From IMG/VR virus record IMGVR_UViG_3300021233_000037, positions 1 to 46,018 of that record: a stretch of DNA of 46,018 bases. The stretch is one strand, 5' to 3'. The translations under genes and the position numbers were made by a program. Positions 9,897 to 46,018 of the stretch are shown here, one piece after another (the stretch's first letter is position 1; each line of letters starts with the position of its first letter). The DNA is from a virus. A model generated the notes under the pieces. It did not search any database. It was not told where the DNA came from and saw nothing but the letters and a program-made list of their open reading frames with translations.

Positions 9897-11788
9897 TGGA
9901 TAGTTACCAAACGTTTATTGCAAAGAGTAGATACTCACGTTACATTGATACTAGTAACAGACGTGAGCATTGGCCTGAAACTGTAGATCGCTACATGGGA
10001 TTCATGTACACACATCTTAAGAAGAAGATGGGTTATACAATGCCACCTGAATTGCGTGAAGAACTGCACAGTGCCATTCTTAACCATGAAGTGATGCCTT
10101 CTATGCGAGCCATGATGACTGCTGGTGAAGCATTGGAACGTGACAACACTGCTGGTTATAATTGTTCCTATCTGCCTGTGGATGATGTTAAAAGCTTTGA
10201 CGAAGCTATGTACATTCTGTTGTGCGGAACGGGTGTTGGATTCTCTGTAGAAAGTAAGTATGTTCAAAAATTACCTGATGTACCTGCACTTATGTTTAAC
10301 AGTGACACTACAATTGTTGTGTCAGACAGTAAGGCAGGTTGGGCAAAAGCTTTACGACAAATTCTTGCGTTGTTGTACAGCGGTGAAATCCCTAAGTGGG
10401 ACGTAAGTAAAGTACGCCCTGCTGGTACTCGACTTAAAACATTCGGTGGTAGAGCATCAGGCCCTGAGCCATTGGTTGACTTGTTTAAGTTTGTTACTAG
10501 TAAGTTTCAAGGTGCTGCTGGACGTAAGCTGACTAGCTTAGAGTGCCACGACATTATGTGTAAGATTGGTGAAGTAGTTGTAGTAGGTGGTGTACGTAGA
10601 TCAGCTATGATTAGCTTGTCTGATTTGTCTGATGATAGGATGCGTCATGCGAAAAGCGGCAATTGGTGGGAACGTGAGGGACAAAGAGCTTTGGCAAACA
10701 ACAGTGCATCTTATAATGACAAGCCCACAGTTGGGGAATTTATGTCAGAATGGTTGGCATTGTACCAATCTCACAGTGGAGAACGTGGGATTTTCTCAAG
10801 ACAAGCTGCTAAGCATACAGTTGAAAAGAATGGAAGACGAGATAGTAATTATGACTTTGGAACTAACCCATGTTCCGAGATCATATTGCGTCCATATCAG
10901 TTTTGTAACCTTACAGAAGTGGTTGCACGAGCTACAGACAACGGAGACACTCTTAAACGAAAAGTGCGACTTGCAACTATCTTGGGAACTTTCCAATCAA
11001 CTCTTACAGAATTTCCATATCTTAGAAAAATCTGGCAGAACAACACTGAGGCTGAGCGGCTTCTTGGAGTCTCCATCACGGGAATCCTCGACTGCCCTGT
11101 GTTGAACGATGTGAATGATGTAGGTCTGTCATCAAGATTAGAGATGCTACGTGATGTGGCTATTACTAGTAATAAGGAGTTTGCTGATGTACTTGGAATA
11201 CCGCAGTCTGCTGCGATCACTTGCGTTAAGCCTTCCGGTACTGTTTCTCAGCTTGTGGATAGTGCTTCAGGCATTCACGCTCGCCATAGTCAGTACTATA
11301 TCCGTCGTGTTCGTAATGATAACAAAGACCCTATCACTCAATTTCTTACAAACCAAGGCATACCTGCTGAAGCTGATGTGATGAAACCTTTGGATACTAC
11401 TGTCTTTAGCTTCCCTATGAAAGCACCTGATGGTTGTATTACACGTGATGAGTTGGATAGTTTTACTCACCTTAAGTTGTGGCTTGCTTATCAACGTCAC
11501 TGGTGTGAACATAAGCCTTCTGTAACTGTGTATGTCAAAGAAGAAGATTGGCCTTCAGTTGGTGCATGGGTGTGGGAACACTTTGATGAGATCAGTGGTA
11601 TTTCATTCCTACCTTGGGATGGTGGTACATACAAACAAGCACCCTATGAAGAAATCACACATCTTGAATATGAGAATATGAAAGATCAGATGCCTAAGAC
11701 AATTGATTGGGATTCATTCATTGAAACCACAGACAACGTAGAAGGTGCTCAGCAACTAGCTTGCGTAGCGGGGGTATGTGAAATCTGA
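9896..11788 (+). CDS. adenosylcobalamin-dependent (class II) ribonucleotide reductase
   Basis: This 630-aa enzyme reduces ribonucleotides to deoxyribonucleotides. Key residues match the monomeric Lactobacillus RTPR type: C90, NPCSE (C326, E328) and C337. The 326/337 spacing equals RTPR C408/C419. A C-terminal thiol pair C623/C628 has the same 5-residue spacing as C731/C736. No class I small subunit or class III activase is nearby, so B12 coenzyme must come from the host or the environment. Palindrome copies at 10494 and 11163, near-copy at 9948, and the 12-mer repeat at 11123. Confidence 0.9.
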   Translation: MDSYQTFIAKSRYSRYIDTSNRREHWPETVDRYMGFMYTHLKKKMGYTMPPELREELHSAILNHEVMPSMRAMMTAGEALERDNTAGYNCSYLPVDDVKSFDEAMYILLCGTGVGFSVESKYVQKLPDVPALMFNSDTTIVVSDSKAGWAKALRQILALLYSGEIPKWDVSKVRPAGTRLKTFGGRASGPEPLVDLFKFVTSKFQGAAGRKLTSLECHDIMCKIGEVVVVGGVRRSAMISLSDLSDDRMRHAKSGNWWEREGQRALANNSASYNDKPTVGEFMSEWLALYQSHSGERGIFSRQAAKHTVEKNGRRDSNYDFGTNPCSEIILRPYQFCNLTEVVARATDNGDTLKRKVRLATILGTFQSTLTEFPYLRKIWQNNTEAERLLGVSITGILDCPVLNDVNDVGLSSRLEMLRDVAITSNKEFADVLGIPQSAAITCVKPSGTVSQLVDSASGIHARHSQYYIRRVRNDNKDPITQFLTNQGIPAEADVMKPLDTTVFSFPMKAPDGCITRDELDSFTHLKLWLAYQRHWCEHKPSVTVYVKEEDWPSVGAWVWEHFDEISGISFLPWDGGTYKQAPYEEITHLEYENMKDQMPKTIDWDSFIETTDNVEGAQQLACVAGVCEI

Positions 11789-12290
11789 TAAGATTCTTAT
11801 CGCAGAGGCGTTAGGGGGTAGTGAGAAAGCTTACGCCACCCTAACGTCAATGTATAGACAGCGTATATACAGATTCATACGTAGGCGGGTGAATGATGAT
11901 GCACAAGCAGAGGAAGTTACTCAAGATGTATTCTTAGATGCATTCAGGTCTTTAGGGGCGTTTAAAGGGGATAGTCAGCTATATACATGGTTATGTACCA
12001 TAGCTAACAGAAAGTGTCTCAGACAGCCTTTAAATAGCCTTAAAACGGATGTAGAAATGATAGATGTAGTCACCCCTGAATCCCTGTTGGCAGTTAAGCA
12101 AAGGATAAAGAATGTGACTGATGTTTGTGATGAGTTGCCTAACAAACAGCGTAGAGCACTGTTGTTAAAAGAATACGAGGGGTTGTCCTATTTGGAAATC
12201 TCTGCTATATTGAGTTGTACACCAAGTTATGCAAAGAAACTGGTATGGCAAGCTAAGAGAACAATCAGGAGGAAGATGAATGACAAATGA
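11778..12290 (+). CDS. ECF-type RNA polymerase sigma factor
   Basis: The product is 170 aa, starting at GTG 11778 (the neighbouring ATG is followed at once by a stop) and overlapping the RNR by 11 nt. Sigma region 2 covers about residues 15-75 (AEEVTQDVFLDAFRSLGAF, LYTWLCTIANRKC). Region 4 covers about 115-165 (LPNKQRRALLL, GLSYLEISAIL, KKLVWQAKRTIRRK) with a helix-turn-helix. Regions 1 and 3 are missing, as in ECF sigma factors. It sits at the end of the early arm, and no phage RNA polymerase is present. I infer that it redirects host polymerase to middle or late promoters. Confidence 0.9.
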   Translation: MKSDKILIAEALGGSEKAYATLTSMYRQRIYRFIRRRVNDDAQAEEVTQDVFLDAFRSLGAFKGDSQLYTWLCTIANRKCLRQPLNSLKTDVEMIDVVTPESLLAVKQRIKNVTDVCDELPNKQRRALLLKEYEGLSYLEISAILSCTPSYAKKLVWQAKRTIRRKMNDK

Positions 12291-13037: not shown

Positions 13038-13063
13038 AAAAAGGGGCTAATTGCCCCTTTTTT
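13038..13063. terminator. bidirectional rho-independent terminator between convergent arms
   Basis: AAAAAGGGGC (13038-13047) pairs with GCCCCTTTTT (13053-13062) around a TAATT loop, with a T-run on each strand. It stands exactly where the rightward early arm meets the leftward structural arm and overlaps the stop of the transglycosylase gene. Confidence 0.95.
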
Positions 13064-41099: not shown

Positions 41100-41250
41100 A
41101 ATAGTACTACATTATACATATATATATAATATATAGTAATAGTATATATAGTTATAGTATATATAAGTATATTATACTTTACTATATAATATAACCCCGC
41201 TATATATATAGTTATATAATATATATTTATATAATATTACTAGTAACATC
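41100..41250. other. AT-rich block, candidate DNA unwinding element
   Basis: The block is nearly all A and T with many TATATA runs. ATATAGTTAT occurs three times, starting at 41146, 41206 and just after the block at 41251. It lies about 45 bp before the DnaA boxes, the arrangement of many bacterial origins. Confidence 0.6.
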
Positions 41251-41294: not shown

Positions 41295-41314
41295 TTATCC
41301 ACAGGTTATCCACA
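41295..41314 (+). other. pair of DnaA boxes, putative origin
   Basis: Perfect TTATCCACA boxes begin at 41295 and 41306, in the same direction and 11 bp apart (one helical turn). They stand next to the AT-rich block. A replication origin using host DnaA is the simplest reading. Confidence 0.65.
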
Positions 41315-41436: not shown

Positions 41437-41617
41437 TGTAAGGTTGGTGTAAGGTTGATCGTTTACATTTCAGTCATCGGTTAGCGCAGTGGTTCATTAC
41501 TAGTAACTAGCAGGGTTAATAGCCCTACAGTTGACAAGGTTTTAAATCACTGTTAATATCGGTGCTTAGGTTGATCGATCGGGGTTGACCTAGAGATTGT
41601 AAGTTTCATGTAAGGTT
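41437..41617 (+). repeat. TGTAAGGTT direct repeats (iteron-like)
   Basis: TGTAAGGTT starts at 41437, 41448 (11-bp step) and 41609. GGTTGATCG occurs at 41454 and 41569. The set flanks the promoter and could be iterons for a replication protein or operator sites. Confidence 0.5.
41531..41559 (+). promoter_or_regulatory. sigma70-like promoter for the rightward arm
   Basis: TTGACA (41531-41536), 17-bp spacer, TAATAT (41554-41559; four of six matches). The first box is perfect. A TTACTAGTAA copy ends 14 bp upstream of it (41507-41516). It would start the early transcript, with a leader of more than 400 nt. Confidence 0.65.
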
Positions 41618-41678
41618 TACGTGATACTATCAAGGCTCTAAACAAGTGTATGTTACCGCTACACTATAAAGAAAAGTA

Positions 41679-41890
41679 ACTCGCAAGCTTTGACCCTAGA
41701 TGGCGCGAATTCTAGGCGAGTGCGATAGGCGCAAATGAACCATAATAGGTAGAGAATCCATGCATATGTGACAGCTTGTAATATGCATGCCGGTGCGGTA
41801 GAGACGCTATCGGGCAGGGTATCCAACTGCGAGCATGCTATCTTCCCTTATGGTAGAGCTTGAATCCCGATGGCAAGGGAGATATGCAAG
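41679..41890 (+). ncRNA. structured leader RNA or ncRNA, unknown
   Basis: Several stems can form in the rightward transcript. Two nested stems pair 41679-41684 with 41716-41721 and 41696-41700 with 41711-41715. A perfect 9-bp stem pairs 41759-41767 with 41781-41789. Short stems lie at 41795-41814. A long interrupted stem joins 41833-41849 to 41875-41887. No open frame with a ribosome site covers it. It is not a clear tRNA. It may be a riboregulator, a packaging signal or a replication primer. Confidence 0.45.
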
Positions 41891-41983
41891 CACGAAAACT
41901 CTAGGGTTTTCTACAGTGTGTTACTAGTAGCATACTGTAATCAAGCCTTAGTAAATCAAATCAAACTGTCAAAGGAAATCATC

Positions 41984-42499
41984 ATGTCATACGCAAATGA
42001 ATTACGCACTGCATTGTCTACATCCAAGGATGCCAAGGACGCTAGCAGGAATGCAGGGGAAGGCATATGGGCAAATTATGTGCGGTCTATGTGCTATCCA
42101 ATAACACCACGTAATGCGGAGGAAGTAGATAGTCAACACAAATCACTGGTAGATAACCTGAATAATATCAGGGAATTATCCAAGGATGAGAAGAATAGTC
42201 TGCGGTCTGCTAAATGCGTGGTAAGCAAAGCCATTACTAATAACGTTGACGTGTGGCAACGCACGGATGATGGTGCGGTTAAGAATGACGACAATGGGCA
42301 TCCATTGCCTAAGGGTAAATCAGAATTGAACGAAGCTAAGTCTGACTTTGACCGCATGATGGCATTCATCGAACAAGCGGGTAAGAAGTATGACAGCGAC
42401 ACACGGGAACAATTCACCCGTGAGCAAATGTCTGCCATCGCTGATGCATATGCAGCACTGGCTCATCGCATGGTGGAAGACTACACTGCAACTAACTGA
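41984..42499 (+). CDS. hypothetical protein, first gene of the rightward arm
   Basis: The product is 171 aa from ATG 41984 with AAAGGA upstream. Upstream codons in frame overlap the structured leader and are not likely translated. Helical, charged, with no motif I know. As the first early gene it may act on the host. Confidence 0.7.
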   Translation: MSYANELRTALSTSKDAKDASRNAGEGIWANYVRSMCYPITPRNAEEVDSQHKSLVDNLNNIRELSKDEKNSLRSAKCVVSKAITNNVDVWQRTDDGAVKNDDNGHPLPKGKSELNEAKSDFDRMMAFIEQAGKKYDSDTREQFTREQMSAIADAYAALAHRMVEDYTATN

Positions 42500-42507
42500 G
42501 AGTGACT

Positions 42508-42525
42508 GCCCCTAGAAATAGGGGC
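42508..42525 (+). terminator. GAAA-tetraloop hairpin
   Basis: GCCCCTA pairs with TAGGGGC around a GAAA loop. No U-tract follows; a TTACTAGTAA copy begins 2 nt later (42528). It may stabilise or process the mRNA or partly terminate. Confidence 0.5.
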
Positions 42526-42555
42526 TGTTACTAGTAACACAATCAAGGGGATGTT

Positions 42556-42696
42556 ATGTACGTTATCTACTGGGAAGAAAACGATGAATTGCAAGCTGTA
42601 GAATTGACTACACTTGAAGCGGCACAATGGGTATGGGATGACTTGTACATGTCATGCAAAGCACTGCTATGTTTTAGACCACAAGGGGACAAATGA
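42556..42696 (+). CDS. short hypothetical protein
   Basis: The product is 46 aa with AAGGGG at good spacing before ATG 42556. Acidic with several Trp. Ends in ATGA overlap with the next gene. Not recognised. Confidence 0.55.
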   Translation: MYVIYWEENDELQAVELTTLEAAQWVWDDLYMSCKALLCFRPQGDK

Positions 42697-42857
42697 TGTA
42701 TACGTTATCTAACATGGTGTTATCTGTCGCTATCTCGCTGGTAATTGCCTATTGCATTAGTGTAGTGGGTGGCATGTATATTGCCCTTATGTTACTAGTA
42801 ATAGGTGGTTTTCTACTGGGTATGCAAGTATCAGAAGTTTTATCAAGGGGTAAATGA
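42693..42857 (+). CDS. small two-span membrane protein
   Basis: The product is 54 aa, with hydrophobic segments at about residues 8-27 and 29-45. AAGGGG upstream. Palindrome 42792-42801 is read Leu-Leu-Val within the second segment, as in the similar membrane peptide at 8883. Confidence 0.6.
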   Translation: MMYTLSNMVLSVAISLVIAYCISVVGGMYIALMLLVIGGFLLGMQVSEVLSRGK

Positions 42858-42858
42858 C

Positions 42859-43140
42859 ATGAGCATTCAACGTGTAGCACAGGCATTCATGCAGGGTAAA
42901 CCTGCTACATCACACAATAGCAAAACTGATGGACAAAGCTATTGGTTACATGGCAATAAGATTGCAGAGAAGGGTCACGGAGGGTCTGTCATCATTAATT
43001 GGTGCGGCTGGTATACCCGAACAACCGCTAATCACCTGAATCATATTGCAAAAACCTATGATGTATCCTATAGATTCAGTGCGAAGATAGCTAGAGATGA
43101 GAGCAAATCAACGGAGATAGTGTATGTTAGACACAATTGA
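42859..43140 (+). CDS. hypothetical protein
   Basis: The product is 93 aa from ATG 42859 with AAGGGG upstream; the frame is open further but lies in the previous gene. Segments SVIINWCGWYTRTTANHLNH look like a small globular domain. Contains the dispersed 18-mer found also at 301-318. Not recognised. Confidence 0.65.
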   Translation: MSIQRVAQAFMQGKPATSHNSKTDGQSYWLHGNKIAEKGHGGSVIINWCGWYTRTTANHLNHIAKTYDVSYRFSAKIARDESKSTEIVYVRHN

Positions 43141-43213: not shown

Positions 43214-43379
43214 AGTGAGGGAATTCAAAACAAATGAGGAAGCTGATGCAATTATGCATGAGATAGAAGAATTCTTTCAACGTACACCTAATGATGAGGT
43301 AGTAGAAAACTGGCTAGATAGCGAGTATCATCGTATATTCGTTACCTATATGTATCCTGACGTTACAAAGGTGAATTAA
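43200..43379 (+). CDS. small acidic protein
   Basis: The product is 59 aa from ATG 43200 with a strong GGGAGG site. The frame is open from 43170 but that ATG is inside the peptide gene. Charged helices. It overlaps the vWA gene by TAATG. Not recognised. Confidence 0.6.
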   Translation: MTTNRVREFKTNEEADAIMHEIEEFFQRTPNDEVVENWLDSEYHRIFVTYMYPDVTKVN

Positions 43380-45100
43380 TGAATTATCTAGATGTAGTCA
43401 ACTTTGAGACATATGTCGCAGGTTGTGCTAGGAATAGTGGCATCAAAGTTGTGTGGGACAAACCCGAAGGTACGCCACGTACCGATGGACGCACAATGTG
43501 GTTGCCATCCATTACTAGTAGCACTCCCGCTGAATGGCTGACACGTATGCGTTACTATGTAAAGCATGAGACAAGCCACATTAGCTATACCGACTTTGAG
43601 ATGCTTAACAAGCACCGACCTACAGGGTTATTGGCTCTGATTAATAACCTTATTGAAGACCATCGTATTGACTTCATTAACGATAGTCAGTATGCAGGTG
43701 ATGCCATTACTAGTAACAACTACTGGGTGTTGTATGCAGATGACATAGTTAAGCGTATGAAATCTACAGATAAAGACTTATCAGATCAACAACGCACTGT
43801 GTTACCCTTGTTTGTGTGGGATGCAGCACTACGTACATGGATTGGTAATGCTGCTGAGACACGTGATGTTATGGGTAGTATGCTAGATGATGATGGTATT
43901 GACAAGCTTCATAAGCTTGAGAAATATACCGATGAGTTACTAGTATTGCGCTGTGACACAGGTCTAGATGTAGGTGAACGTGTGTTTGATTTAGCTAAGC
44001 GTATCCTAGCTGACTTGTTTGATGCTAACCCTGAGGACTACACTGAGGAAGCTAAGCCTAAGGGTGATGGTGGTGAGGGCAAAGGTAAGGGTAAGGGTGA
44101 TGGTGAGTCAGATGGTGGTGAGGAAGCAGGTGCAGGTGGTGATGATGAGGATAGACTTGTAGACGTAGAGAAGCTTATCAAAGCCATTGGGCATGAGCAT
44201 AAGCCTAGTCGTACAGGTATTCACCTTAAGCTAGACAAAGCCGATACCAAGGGTTCATACACCATACCACACAAGGATGAGTACATTATCGTGCGATTCC
44301 CTGAGTTACATCGTGCAGTTAAGGGTCGTGGTGAGGGCTATTTCAAATCAGATAGTGTATCCAAATATATTACTAGTAATGCTAAGCCACTGGCTAATCA
44401 ATTGCGTATGCGATTGCAGACACGTAGCAGAGATAGGTATGAGTACGGATTGAAGCGTGGTAAGTTACACACAGGTAGTTTGCATAAACTATTGTCAGGT
44501 AACACTGAAGCTAGTACCCGTGTGTTCCGTAAACGTATCGTATCTGATACACTTGACACGGCTGTTACATTGCTTGTAGATTGTAGCGGTAGTATGTCAG
44601 GTAAGAAGTATGAGATGGCATGTGCTGGTGCTGGTGCTATGGCAGAAGCATTAAAGCCCCTTAACATACCATTCAATGTGTTAGGTTTCACTAACTCAGA
44701 AGGTAATGACGACCCTTTGATATGGGTATTCAATGACTTCGGTGAACGTGTATCTACACCCGATCTAGTTAAACGTTTTGCTGTAGCTAGTGGTTGTTTG
44801 TGGGAGAATACAGATGGTGATGCGTTAGCGTATGCATCGTATGTATTGGGTATGCGCCCTGAACATCGTAAGGTGTTACTAGTATTGTCTGATGGTAGTC
44901 CCGCAGGACGTGATTCACATGGTGACATTACAGCGTATACAGCACGTGTAGTTAAAGACATTGAAGCTAGTGGGGTAGACATATATGGTATTGGTATTTG
45001 TGATGATAATGTTCGTATGTTTTATAAGAAGTATGAAGTAGTTACAGACATTGCTAAACTTTCAGGGACAATTCTTTCAACTTTAGATCGGAGTATTTAA
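43379..45100 (+). CDS. von Willebrand A-domain protein, CobT-like
   Basis: The product is 573 aa. The N-terminus has YVKHETSHISY (HExxH-like, H63, E64, H67) and NLIEDHRIDF, both typical of CobT-type vWA proteins. A Gly/Lys/Glu-rich linker covers about residues 218-262. The C-terminal vWA domain has the metal site DCSGSMS (D401, S403, S405). It is one base away from the AAA+ gene, its likely partner. No CobN is encoded, so cobalt insertion as such is unlikely. Palindromes at 43707 and 44370, near-copies at 43512, 43937 and 44876. Confidence 0.85.
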   Translation: MNYLDVVNFETYVAGCARNSGIKVVWDKPEGTPRTDGRTMWLPSITSSTPAEWLTRMRYYVKHETSHISYTDFEMLNKHRPTGLLALINNLIEDHRIDFINDSQYAGDAITSNNYWVLYADDIVKRMKSTDKDLSDQQRTVLPLFVWDAALRTWIGNAAETRDVMGSMLDDDGIDKLHKLEKYTDELLVLRCDTGLDVGERVFDLAKRILADLFDANPEDYTEEAKPKGDGGEGKGKGKGDGESDGGEEAGAGGDDEDRLVDVEKLIKAIGHEHKPSRTGIHLKLDKADTKGSYTIPHKDEYIIVRFPELHRAVKGRGEGYFKSDSVSKYITSNAKPLANQLRMRLQTRSRDRYEYGLKRGKLHTGSLHKLLSGNTEASTRVFRKRIVSDTLDTAVTLLVDCSGSMSGKKYEMACAGAGAMAEALKPLNIPFNVLGFTNSEGNDDPLIWVFNDFGERVSTPDLVKRFAVASGCLWENTDGDALAYASYVLGMRPEHRKVLLVLSDGSPAGRDSHGDITAYTARVVKDIEASGVDIYGIGICDDNVRMFYKKYEVVTDIAKLSGTILSTLDRSI

Positions 45101-45101
45101 C

Positions 45102-46018
45102 ATGGCAGTAGAAATCAACGACAAAGTAGCTAAGGCTATCGCAGCACACTTGGGTAAAGTACCTGCTACACCCGATGTTACACTTACCCCTACTGATAAG
45201 GTAGAGAAGACAATTACATTGTCAGATGGTCAGAAGCTATTCAGTAAGGTGTTTGGCTACGTGCCTAGCTTCGGTGACTTTGCTGTCACTGTATTGGCTG
45301 ATAGCAGTGATGCAGAGGTAGCACGCCTTGTACCTAAGGCAGACCCTGACTATGTGGTGCAACGTAATGAAGCAGCATTACTAGTAGCAGGTATCGAAGA
45401 CAACGATAAGAGCTTACTTACAGGCCCTACAGGTAGTGGTAAATCATCACTGGTTAAGTATGTGTGTGCTAAGCTTAATCGTCCGTTCATTCGTATCAAT
45501 ATGTCAGGTGACATTGAGAGTGCGTCATTGTTCGGTATGCTTACTGCTAGTGTGGGTGTAGGTACTGAGTGGAAAGATGGTGCTATCACTGAAGCATGTA
45601 AGTATGGTGCTGTGTGCCTTGTAGATGAGTGGGAACTGATGCCACCTGAGATTGCTATGGGTATGCAGAACTTGTTAGAAGATGGTGGTTATCTCTATCT
45701 CAAAGAGAAGCCCGGTACGTCTACTGATCGTACCATTGTGCCAGATGCACACTTCCGTCTGGTGTTTGCAGGTAACACTGTTGGACAAGGTGACACTACT
45801 GGTGCATTCTCAGGTGTTGGTATTCAGAACAGTGCGACTATCGACCGATTCACTAACACTATCCGTCTTGCATACCTAGATGCTAAGCACGAGGTAGCCA
45901 TCATTACTAGTAAGAGTAACATTGCCAAAGATGTTGCAACTAAGATGGTTCGTGTTGCAGGTCTTGTGCGTAATGCGTATGACACAGGTAAGAATGGTCT
46001 TACTATGTCACCAAGGAA
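45102..46018 (+). CDS. MoxR/CobS-like AAA+ ATPase, N-terminal part (continues at base 2)
   Basis: The joined protein is about 349 aa. Walker A GPTGSGKSS (108-116), Walker B CLVDEWE (D174, E175) and a sensor-1 FAGNT segment are clear. Such ATPases act with vWA proteins to remodel or load cofactors into large complexes; CobS with CobT drives cobalt chelation in bacteria. The frame at the extreme right end has base differences from the left copy, probably end errors. Near-palindrome at 45378 and a full copy at 45904 (same as 36). Confidence 0.9.
   Translation, partial: MAVEINDKVAKAIAAHLGKVPATPDVTLTPTDKVEKTITLSDGQKLFSKVFGYVPSFGDFAVTVLADSSDAEVARLVPKADPDYVVQRNEAALLVAGIEDNDKSLLTGPTGSGKSSLVKYVCAKLNRPFIRINMSGDIESASLFGMLTASVGVGTEWKDGAITEACKYGAVCLVDEWELMPPEIAMGMQNLLEDGGYLYLKEKPGTSTDRTIVPDAHFRLVFAGNTVGQGDTTGAFSGVGIQNSATIDRFTNTIRLAYLDAKHEVAIITSKSNIAKDVATKMVRVAGLVRNAYDTGKNGLTMSPR
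45869..46018. repeat. terminal redundancy, right copy
   Basis: Same sequence as 1-150 with four differences clustered in the last 25 bases (45994, 46014, 46016, 46018). The left copy gives the better protein (Met-Ser-Pro-Arg-Thr continues), so the right end is likely error-prone. Confidence 0.9.

Follow-up and report, generated by a model that had tools for sequence, protein, structure and literature searches.

Our analysis shows that positions 41679 to 41891 of the DNA studied here, the whole of a 46,018-nt IMG/VR virus record ("the window"), form a structured RNA that consists of three folded modules (A, B, and C) and lies in the 5' leader of the rightward operon. The decisive evidence for this leader RNA is covariation, not fold energy. 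Single-sequence folding was rejected as proof because it is uninformative: the span 41679-41890, which a sequence-only reading of the window had marked as highly structured, does not fold more stably than background (z -0.07 versus shuffled sequences). The leader RNA represents a new family without an Rfam entry, of a known kind, the structured phage leader RNAs.

Covariation in module A

The first relatives, 14 in number, were collected by a search with the 171-aa protein encoded downstream of the leader, and a structure-based pattern scan of IMG/VR yielded 21 contigs; all compared sequences are metagenomic DNA. Upstream of the gene, the relatives share a conserved pattern, AAGCTTwGAC...CGAGTnC, around a stem of changing letters. 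Alignment A1 and its covariance delimit module A (41679-41739, plus strand) as a pseudoknotted element of about 60 nt. It comprises helix P1 (41681-41684/41722-41725), the invariant GCUU/GAGU segments (41687-41690/41718-41721), helix P2 with a bulged U at 41711 (41695-41701/41709-41716), and a pseudoknot of 3 to 4 bp in which the P2 loop pairs with the strand 3' of P1 (41703-41706/41729-41732). The unpaired nucleotides AAGCUU.GAC and CGAGU are invariant, and about 20 positions do not vary at all.

Covarying base pairs in relatives, which the sequence-only reading had put forward as a check, are present in modules A and B alike. In module A, compensatory double changes occur in 12 of the 15 tested pairs, 95.3% of the cells are paired, and none of 500 shuffles equals the alignment. 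The covariation score is 0.636, versus 0.186 +/- 0.027 after shuffling and at most 0.106 when the partner strand is slid by one to three columns. In relatives L002 and L012, the strand that forms the pseudoknot lies 2 nt off its usual place, and the alignment counts it as unpaired. Covariance model CM R1 scores module A of the window at 71 bits, the covariance models used here being built on few, related sequences. From compensatory changes beyond those of column-shuffled and slid controls, it is near certain that module A is a real conserved structured RNA.

The pattern matches point the same way. The flanking 5-bp helix (P1) and the inner 5-bp helix (P2) are present in all 21 IMG/VR contigs, while the same pattern gave 14 matches in GTDB genomes, none of which has P1; these 14 were discarded as chance matches for lack of that helix. 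The view that the leader holds only chance intergenic stems and no functional RNA can appeal to the background-level energy of the named span, but it is refuted by the alignment, in which no shuffle reaches the observed covariation and the slid controls clearly fail, as well as by the contrast of 21/21 with 0/14; we regard it as hardly credible.

Modules B and C and the downstream hairpins

Module B (41739-41854, plus strand) is a multibranched domain of 116 nt, defined by RNAalifold and covariance model CM R2. It is made up of helices B0 (41739-41745/41848-41854), B1 (41747-41752/41838-41843), B2 (41759-41767/41781-41789), B3 (41790-41797/41805-41813), and B4 (41814-41817/41827-41830). RNAalifold finds 29 pairs over six sequences, with double changes in 20 of them. 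CM R2 scores module B of the window at 122.7 bits and recovers two relatives outside its training set, L203 and L186, with E values of 3e-7 and 5e-7, respectively. Other contigs matched by a module B pattern scan were rejected as chance, since they gave no CM R2 match.

Module C (41858-41891, plus strand) is a small hairpin of two helices, P5 (41858-41862/41887-41891) and P6 (41866-41868/41877-41879), with a 3' internal loop ending in GATATG. In P5, 90 of 90 cells are paired over 18 sequences by several pair types, a count that is somewhat biased because the helix arms were set by hand, as they were for P4 (see below) and for the arm checks of module B. The perfect 9-bp stem with a 13-nt loop (41759-41789) of the sequence-only reading is exact and corresponds to B2. 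Its long closing stem (41833-41887) is not borne out: 41838-41843 pairs instead with 41747-41752 and 41887-41891 with 41858-41862, and both of these helices covary.

Two hairpins follow the modules on the plus strand. The 3' arm of hairpin 1 (41894-41911; GAAAAC...GTTTTC) can alternatively pair with a downstream AAGCC, a pairing that is not kept in every relative, and hairpin 2 (41912-41939) is a palindrome centered on TTACTAGTAGC. It is this region that carries most of the fold energy: 41892-41960 has a z value of -5.5 and module C one of -3.5, and the value of -2.28 for 41679-41985 is mostly due to them, whereas modules A, B, and C folded together reach only -0.29. No intrinsic terminator (stable hairpin plus U tract) was found at 41640-41983, hairpins 1 and 2 having no U tract in the window. 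None of the conserved helices sequesters the Shine-Dalgarno (SD) sequence, which lies about 85 nt 3' of module C. In the window and in L007, GCUUUGAC was predicted to pair over a long range with GUCAAAG at the SD; this pairing was rejected because other relatives break it.

As the sequence-only reading had held, no usual coding signal covers the leader: its open reading frames reach at most 62 codons from stop to stop, the sole longer frame being an upstream extension of the gene at 41984. Nor was any match to a protein-coding gene found, which that reading had named as grounds for refutation along with absent covariation and a fold no more stable than background; of the three, only the fold energy of the named span comes out that way.

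Distribution and module exchange

An independent, gene-based scan of IMG/VR identified 39 contigs with the downstream gene. By covariance model, module A stands directly ahead of the 171-aa gene in 26 of these, and four contigs (L167, L183, L184, and L189) bear module B but lack A. The contig end interrupts L182, and two further contigs are truncated. L186 has module B together with a divergent A-like element, recognized by eye, which scores best at the right place but with an E value of 1.4. No module A match was obtained in five gene-bearing relatives (L188, L198, L201, L202, and L204), and those of the five that were read have a promoter-like site near the gene; the operon can therefore do without module A. 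Every copy found belongs to the leader of this operon and none lies elsewhere in the genomes searched, and a second copy of module A was never found in a genome.

Close relatives swap the middle of the leader, where module B, a GNRA-type hairpin, or a different pseudoknot may stand, and modules A plus C can be missing. The window and L007 share an open reading frame that is 98% identical at the protein level and flanks that are about 91% identical at the DNA level, yet the middle of the RNA differs, L007 having a short GNRA-type hairpin in place of B. The same kind of swap separates L176 from L178. Near-identical flanks around different middles indicate that modules have been exchanged on short evolutionary time scales. 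In the short-form relatives, the GNRA-type hairpin that replaces B (P4) covaries, and in L016, L050, and L144 there is a different middle hairpin whose loop is able to pair downstream.

boxA-like sequences in leaders lacking module A

The complete leaders that bear B and lack A contain sequences resembling rrn boxA. Scored against the 18-letter Escherichia coli rrn boxA consensus, they agree at 17 of 18 letters in L167 (TGTTCTTTAACAATTTAT), 15 in L189, and 14 in L183/L184. These sites lie at -278 to -287 relative to the start codon, in the place of module A, and are followed by a hairpin (shuffle P <= 0.007). No A-bearing leader scores above shuffled sequences, the leader of the window being at chance level (11/18). 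The mutual exclusion of module A and boxA has a Fisher P value of 0.0004, which overstates the support because the leaders, only three of them distinct, come from related phages. It seems that phages of this lineage have one of two elements at this leader position, module A or a boxA followed by a hairpin.

Genomic setting and promoters

The ends of the record overlap by about 145 bp (1-145 matching 45869-46013; the first 40 bases are found again at 45869), and relative L002 continues across the junction; therefore, the window is probably a complete genome of about 45.9 kb, circular in the assembly. Its proteins include a terminase, a portal, a DNA polymerase, a helicase, a ribonucleotide reductase, and a CobT-like protein. 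The terminase is 57% identical to that of the Methylophilales phages MEP401/402, which are classified as Zobellviridae, and gene content together with this identity places the phage near that family. A CobT-type VWA protein (43379-45100) and a CbbQ/NorQ C-terminal-type fragment (77-283) resemble the CobS/CobT-like pair of cobaviruses. Leftward genes are structural and rightward genes belong to replication and early functions. The rightward operon, roughly 17 kb, ends at a strong bidirectional terminator (13038-13062) where two convergent operons meet. The protein scan revealed no phage RNA polymerase. The phage encodes a sigma-70-like protein with regions 2 and 4 (11778-12290), possibly for a switch to late transcription.

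The structured leader is situated in the divergent intergenic region, directly 5' of the first gene of the rightward operon (41984-42499, plus strand). The predicted all-helical 171-aa product of this gene has no match in Pfam, PHROGs, or cultured phages by protein search, and its AlphaFold model (pLDDT, 85.5) returns from Foldseek only an uncharacterized phage orthologue; hence, there is no hint of an N-like protein. Upstream, two perfect DnaA boxes (TTATCCACA, 41295-41303 and 41306-41314) lie beside AT-rich inverted repeats (about 41100-41246), which together mark a probable replication origin. The palindrome TACTAGTA occurs 40 times in the window, versus 1.4 expected and 6 for the next palindromic octamer. 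Its copies (e.g., at 41238, 41498, 41922, 42529, and 42793) are mostly TTACTAGTAAC-like and lie on both arms, also within genes. All relatives checked show a similar enrichment, those lacking the RNA included, whereas cultured Zobellviridae have few copies or none; the palindrome resembles a protein-binding site of the stoperator or parS type that is used across the genome.

The promoter that the sequence-only reading had placed at 41531 is recognizable as a sigma70-type promoter-like site (41531-41559, plus strand; TTGACA, 17 nt, TAATAT, with TG ahead of the second hexamer), which has a counterpart in close relatives. It would give a leader of about 420 nt, close to the 400 nt first estimated, but a second, nearer promoter-like element would shorten this to about 345 nt. 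This proximal element (41598-41632, plus strand) consists of 11-bp direct repeats, TGTAAGTTTCATGTAAGGTT (41598-41617), followed by TGATACTAT, with TACTAT as the -10 hexamer, and would set the probable transcription start near 41639; its spacing to the RNA agrees with that in relatives. The 11-bp direct repeat TGTAAGKTTNNTGTAAGKTT is present in two copies, at 41437-41456 and 41598-41617, and in relatives stands just 5' of a TATAAT-like box; its OmpR/PhoB-type spacing suggests an activator-dependent early promoter. Near the 5' end, hairpin 0 (41646-41664, plus strand; GTGTA/TACAC) is followed by TATAAAG, and GGGAATACGTTCCC-type hairpins occupy the equivalent place in relatives.

The promoter type varies among A-bearing leaders, being either TTGACA-17-TAATAT-like or an 11-bp direct-repeat element (TGTAAGTTTCRTGTAAGGTT). 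In each of the 18 distinct A-bearing leaders that were checked, a -10-like hexamer nevertheless precedes the AGCTT of module A by 40 to 55 nt; this spacing is suggestive rather than proof because the hexamers were picked from a list. Since it is held across promoter types, the RNA element probably stands near the 5' end of the transcript.

Comparison with known families and systems

In Rfam 15, no family reached the gathering threshold, and the only hits were chance snoRNA matches (E > 3); an Rfam search had been one of the checks proposed beforehand. BLASTN against cultured phages gave no match. CM R1 found nothing in HK022 even at E <= 10, and no module A in four relatives that are cultured or complete, the Zobellviridae MEP401, MEP402, and ICBM2 and the Manatee Spring phage ctOsX528. 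Among Burkholderiales, CM R1 had no match in 200 genomes and CM R2 none in 150, a search that had no positive control among bacteria. We found no described RNA of this phage family in the open-licence literature. MEP401 (L162) has about 1.1 kb of unannotated DNA at the same divergent position (41896-42987), without module A, which may carry an RNA of its own.

Antitermination by put is RNA-mediated and factor-independent and goes through the beta' zinc-binding domain. The put RNAs of HK022 are located downstream of early promoters (putL just downstream and putR about 270 nt away) and act without a phage protein (PMC9378689). A put site is about 70 nt long and has two stem-loops, with no mention of a pseudoknot (PMC9378689). 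Like put, which acts in cis, the leader RNA is a structured RNA downstream of a phage early promoter; unlike put, with its two copies per genome and two stem-loops, it has one copy, a pseudoknot, and variable modules, and neither CM R1 against HK022 nor comparison with the published anatomy disclosed a relationship in sequence or fold. The rrn boxA and lambda nut sites resemble the B-bearing relatives without A (14 to 17 of 18 letters, then a hairpin, at the same leader position) and differ from A-bearing leaders, including that of the window (11/18), and no N-like protein was identified. EAR and other RNA-based processive antiterminators are structured leader RNAs ahead of long operons; the position is alike, but the leader RNA has no Rfam match. 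The leader pseudoknot of T4 gene 32 governs translation of the adjacent gene. The RNA of the window is likewise a leader pseudoknot of a phage mRNA, but it is several times larger and is separated from the SD by about 85 nt or more.

Possible functions of the leader RNA

The reading that we favor, tentatively and by analogy, is that the leader RNA modifies host RNA polymerase in cis, bringing about antitermination as do HK022 put and lambda nut; it is drawn from where the RNA lies, from its exchange with boxA, and from the precedent of put. The RNA would act while emerging from the polymerase, module A and its partners would modify the elongating enzyme directly or via Nus factors, and the modified polymerase would then read through the long untranslated leader and the early operon, neither pausing nor terminating. 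A role in cis would be consistent with a single copy in each genome, invariably in this operon's leader and within 40 to 55 nt of the -10 hexamer, and with an SD far from module C and free of conserved helices. A need for antitermination is suggested by the apparent lack of a phage polymerase and by an operon that runs to the terminator at 13038-13062. The link of module A to Nus factors is an analogy only, because the A-bearing leaders have no boxA. Against antitermination stand the five relatives whose operon lives without module A and the different size and anatomy of put. A bolder version, in which the leader is a new RNA-only class of processive antiterminator unrelated to put, replacing a boxA/nut-type site in this lineage and carrying exchangeable auxiliary RNA domains tuned to different hosts, is possible but doubtful.

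The main rival is a stable, trans-acting phage noncoding RNA, which would arise by transcription from the early promoter, undergo processing close to hairpins 1 and 2, and be diffusible, its modules being exchanged under diversifying selection; it might, for instance, be a decoy of a host or defense RNA-binding protein. It accounts equally well for modularity (the swaps of window/L007 and L176/L178) and for dispensability in the five relatives, and strong hairpins directly 3' of the modules suit it. boxA, too, fits, as it is typical of operons of stable untranslated RNA. However, the RNA is invariably linked to one and the same gene and no clear terminator separates the two, it never occurs elsewhere in the genomes searched, and it has no known target, so that we consider this reading rather unlikely, if serious. 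The sequence-only reading had proposed a new phage ncRNA or a riboregulator of the early arm; conserved covarying RNA without an Rfam match ahead of the same first early gene agrees with either proposal.

Other readings are less likely, in descending order. A leader responsive to a ligand or protein (a riboswitch or autoregulation by an early protein), with A, B, and C as sensor and the alternative pairing of hairpin 1 with the hairpin 2 arms as expression platform for the first gene, would explain the invariant, aptamer-like unpaired nucleotides and the overlap of the 3' arm of hairpin 1 with the arm pairing with AAGCC. We judge it improbable, given that the alternative stem is inconsistently conserved, the SD is accessible, the platform has no clear U-tract terminator, no particular ligand suggests itself, and the RNA, unlike metabolite riboswitches, is absent from the bacterial genomes searched. 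Still less probable is that module A is a new self-cleaving ribozyme trimming the early transcript. Its size and layout (two stacked stems, a conserved internal loop with conserved nucleotides, and a pseudoknot of 3 to 4 bp) are comparable to those of small ribozymes, for example pistol (PMC4604425), but no Rfam ribozyme model matches the leader RNA and the alignment suggests no cleavage site. The primer or other replication RNA for the neighboring origin, also raised by the sequence-only reading, has the DnaA boxes and AT-rich repeats within 600 bp in its favor; it is very improbable because transcription begins downstream of these elements and leads away from the likely origin, and the lineage can dispense with the RNA.

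Only a small number of known phage RNAs act on the host's machinery for transcription or RNA unaided by a phage protein, and the antitermination reading, if true, would add a new RNA-only class. Within one covarying, pseudoknotted family, close relatives offer natural module swaps, natural knockouts, and an apparent exchange with boxA. The family offers a concrete lead, open to testing, either to a second case of RNA-only antitermination or to a modular phage noncoding RNA that possibly counters host functions.
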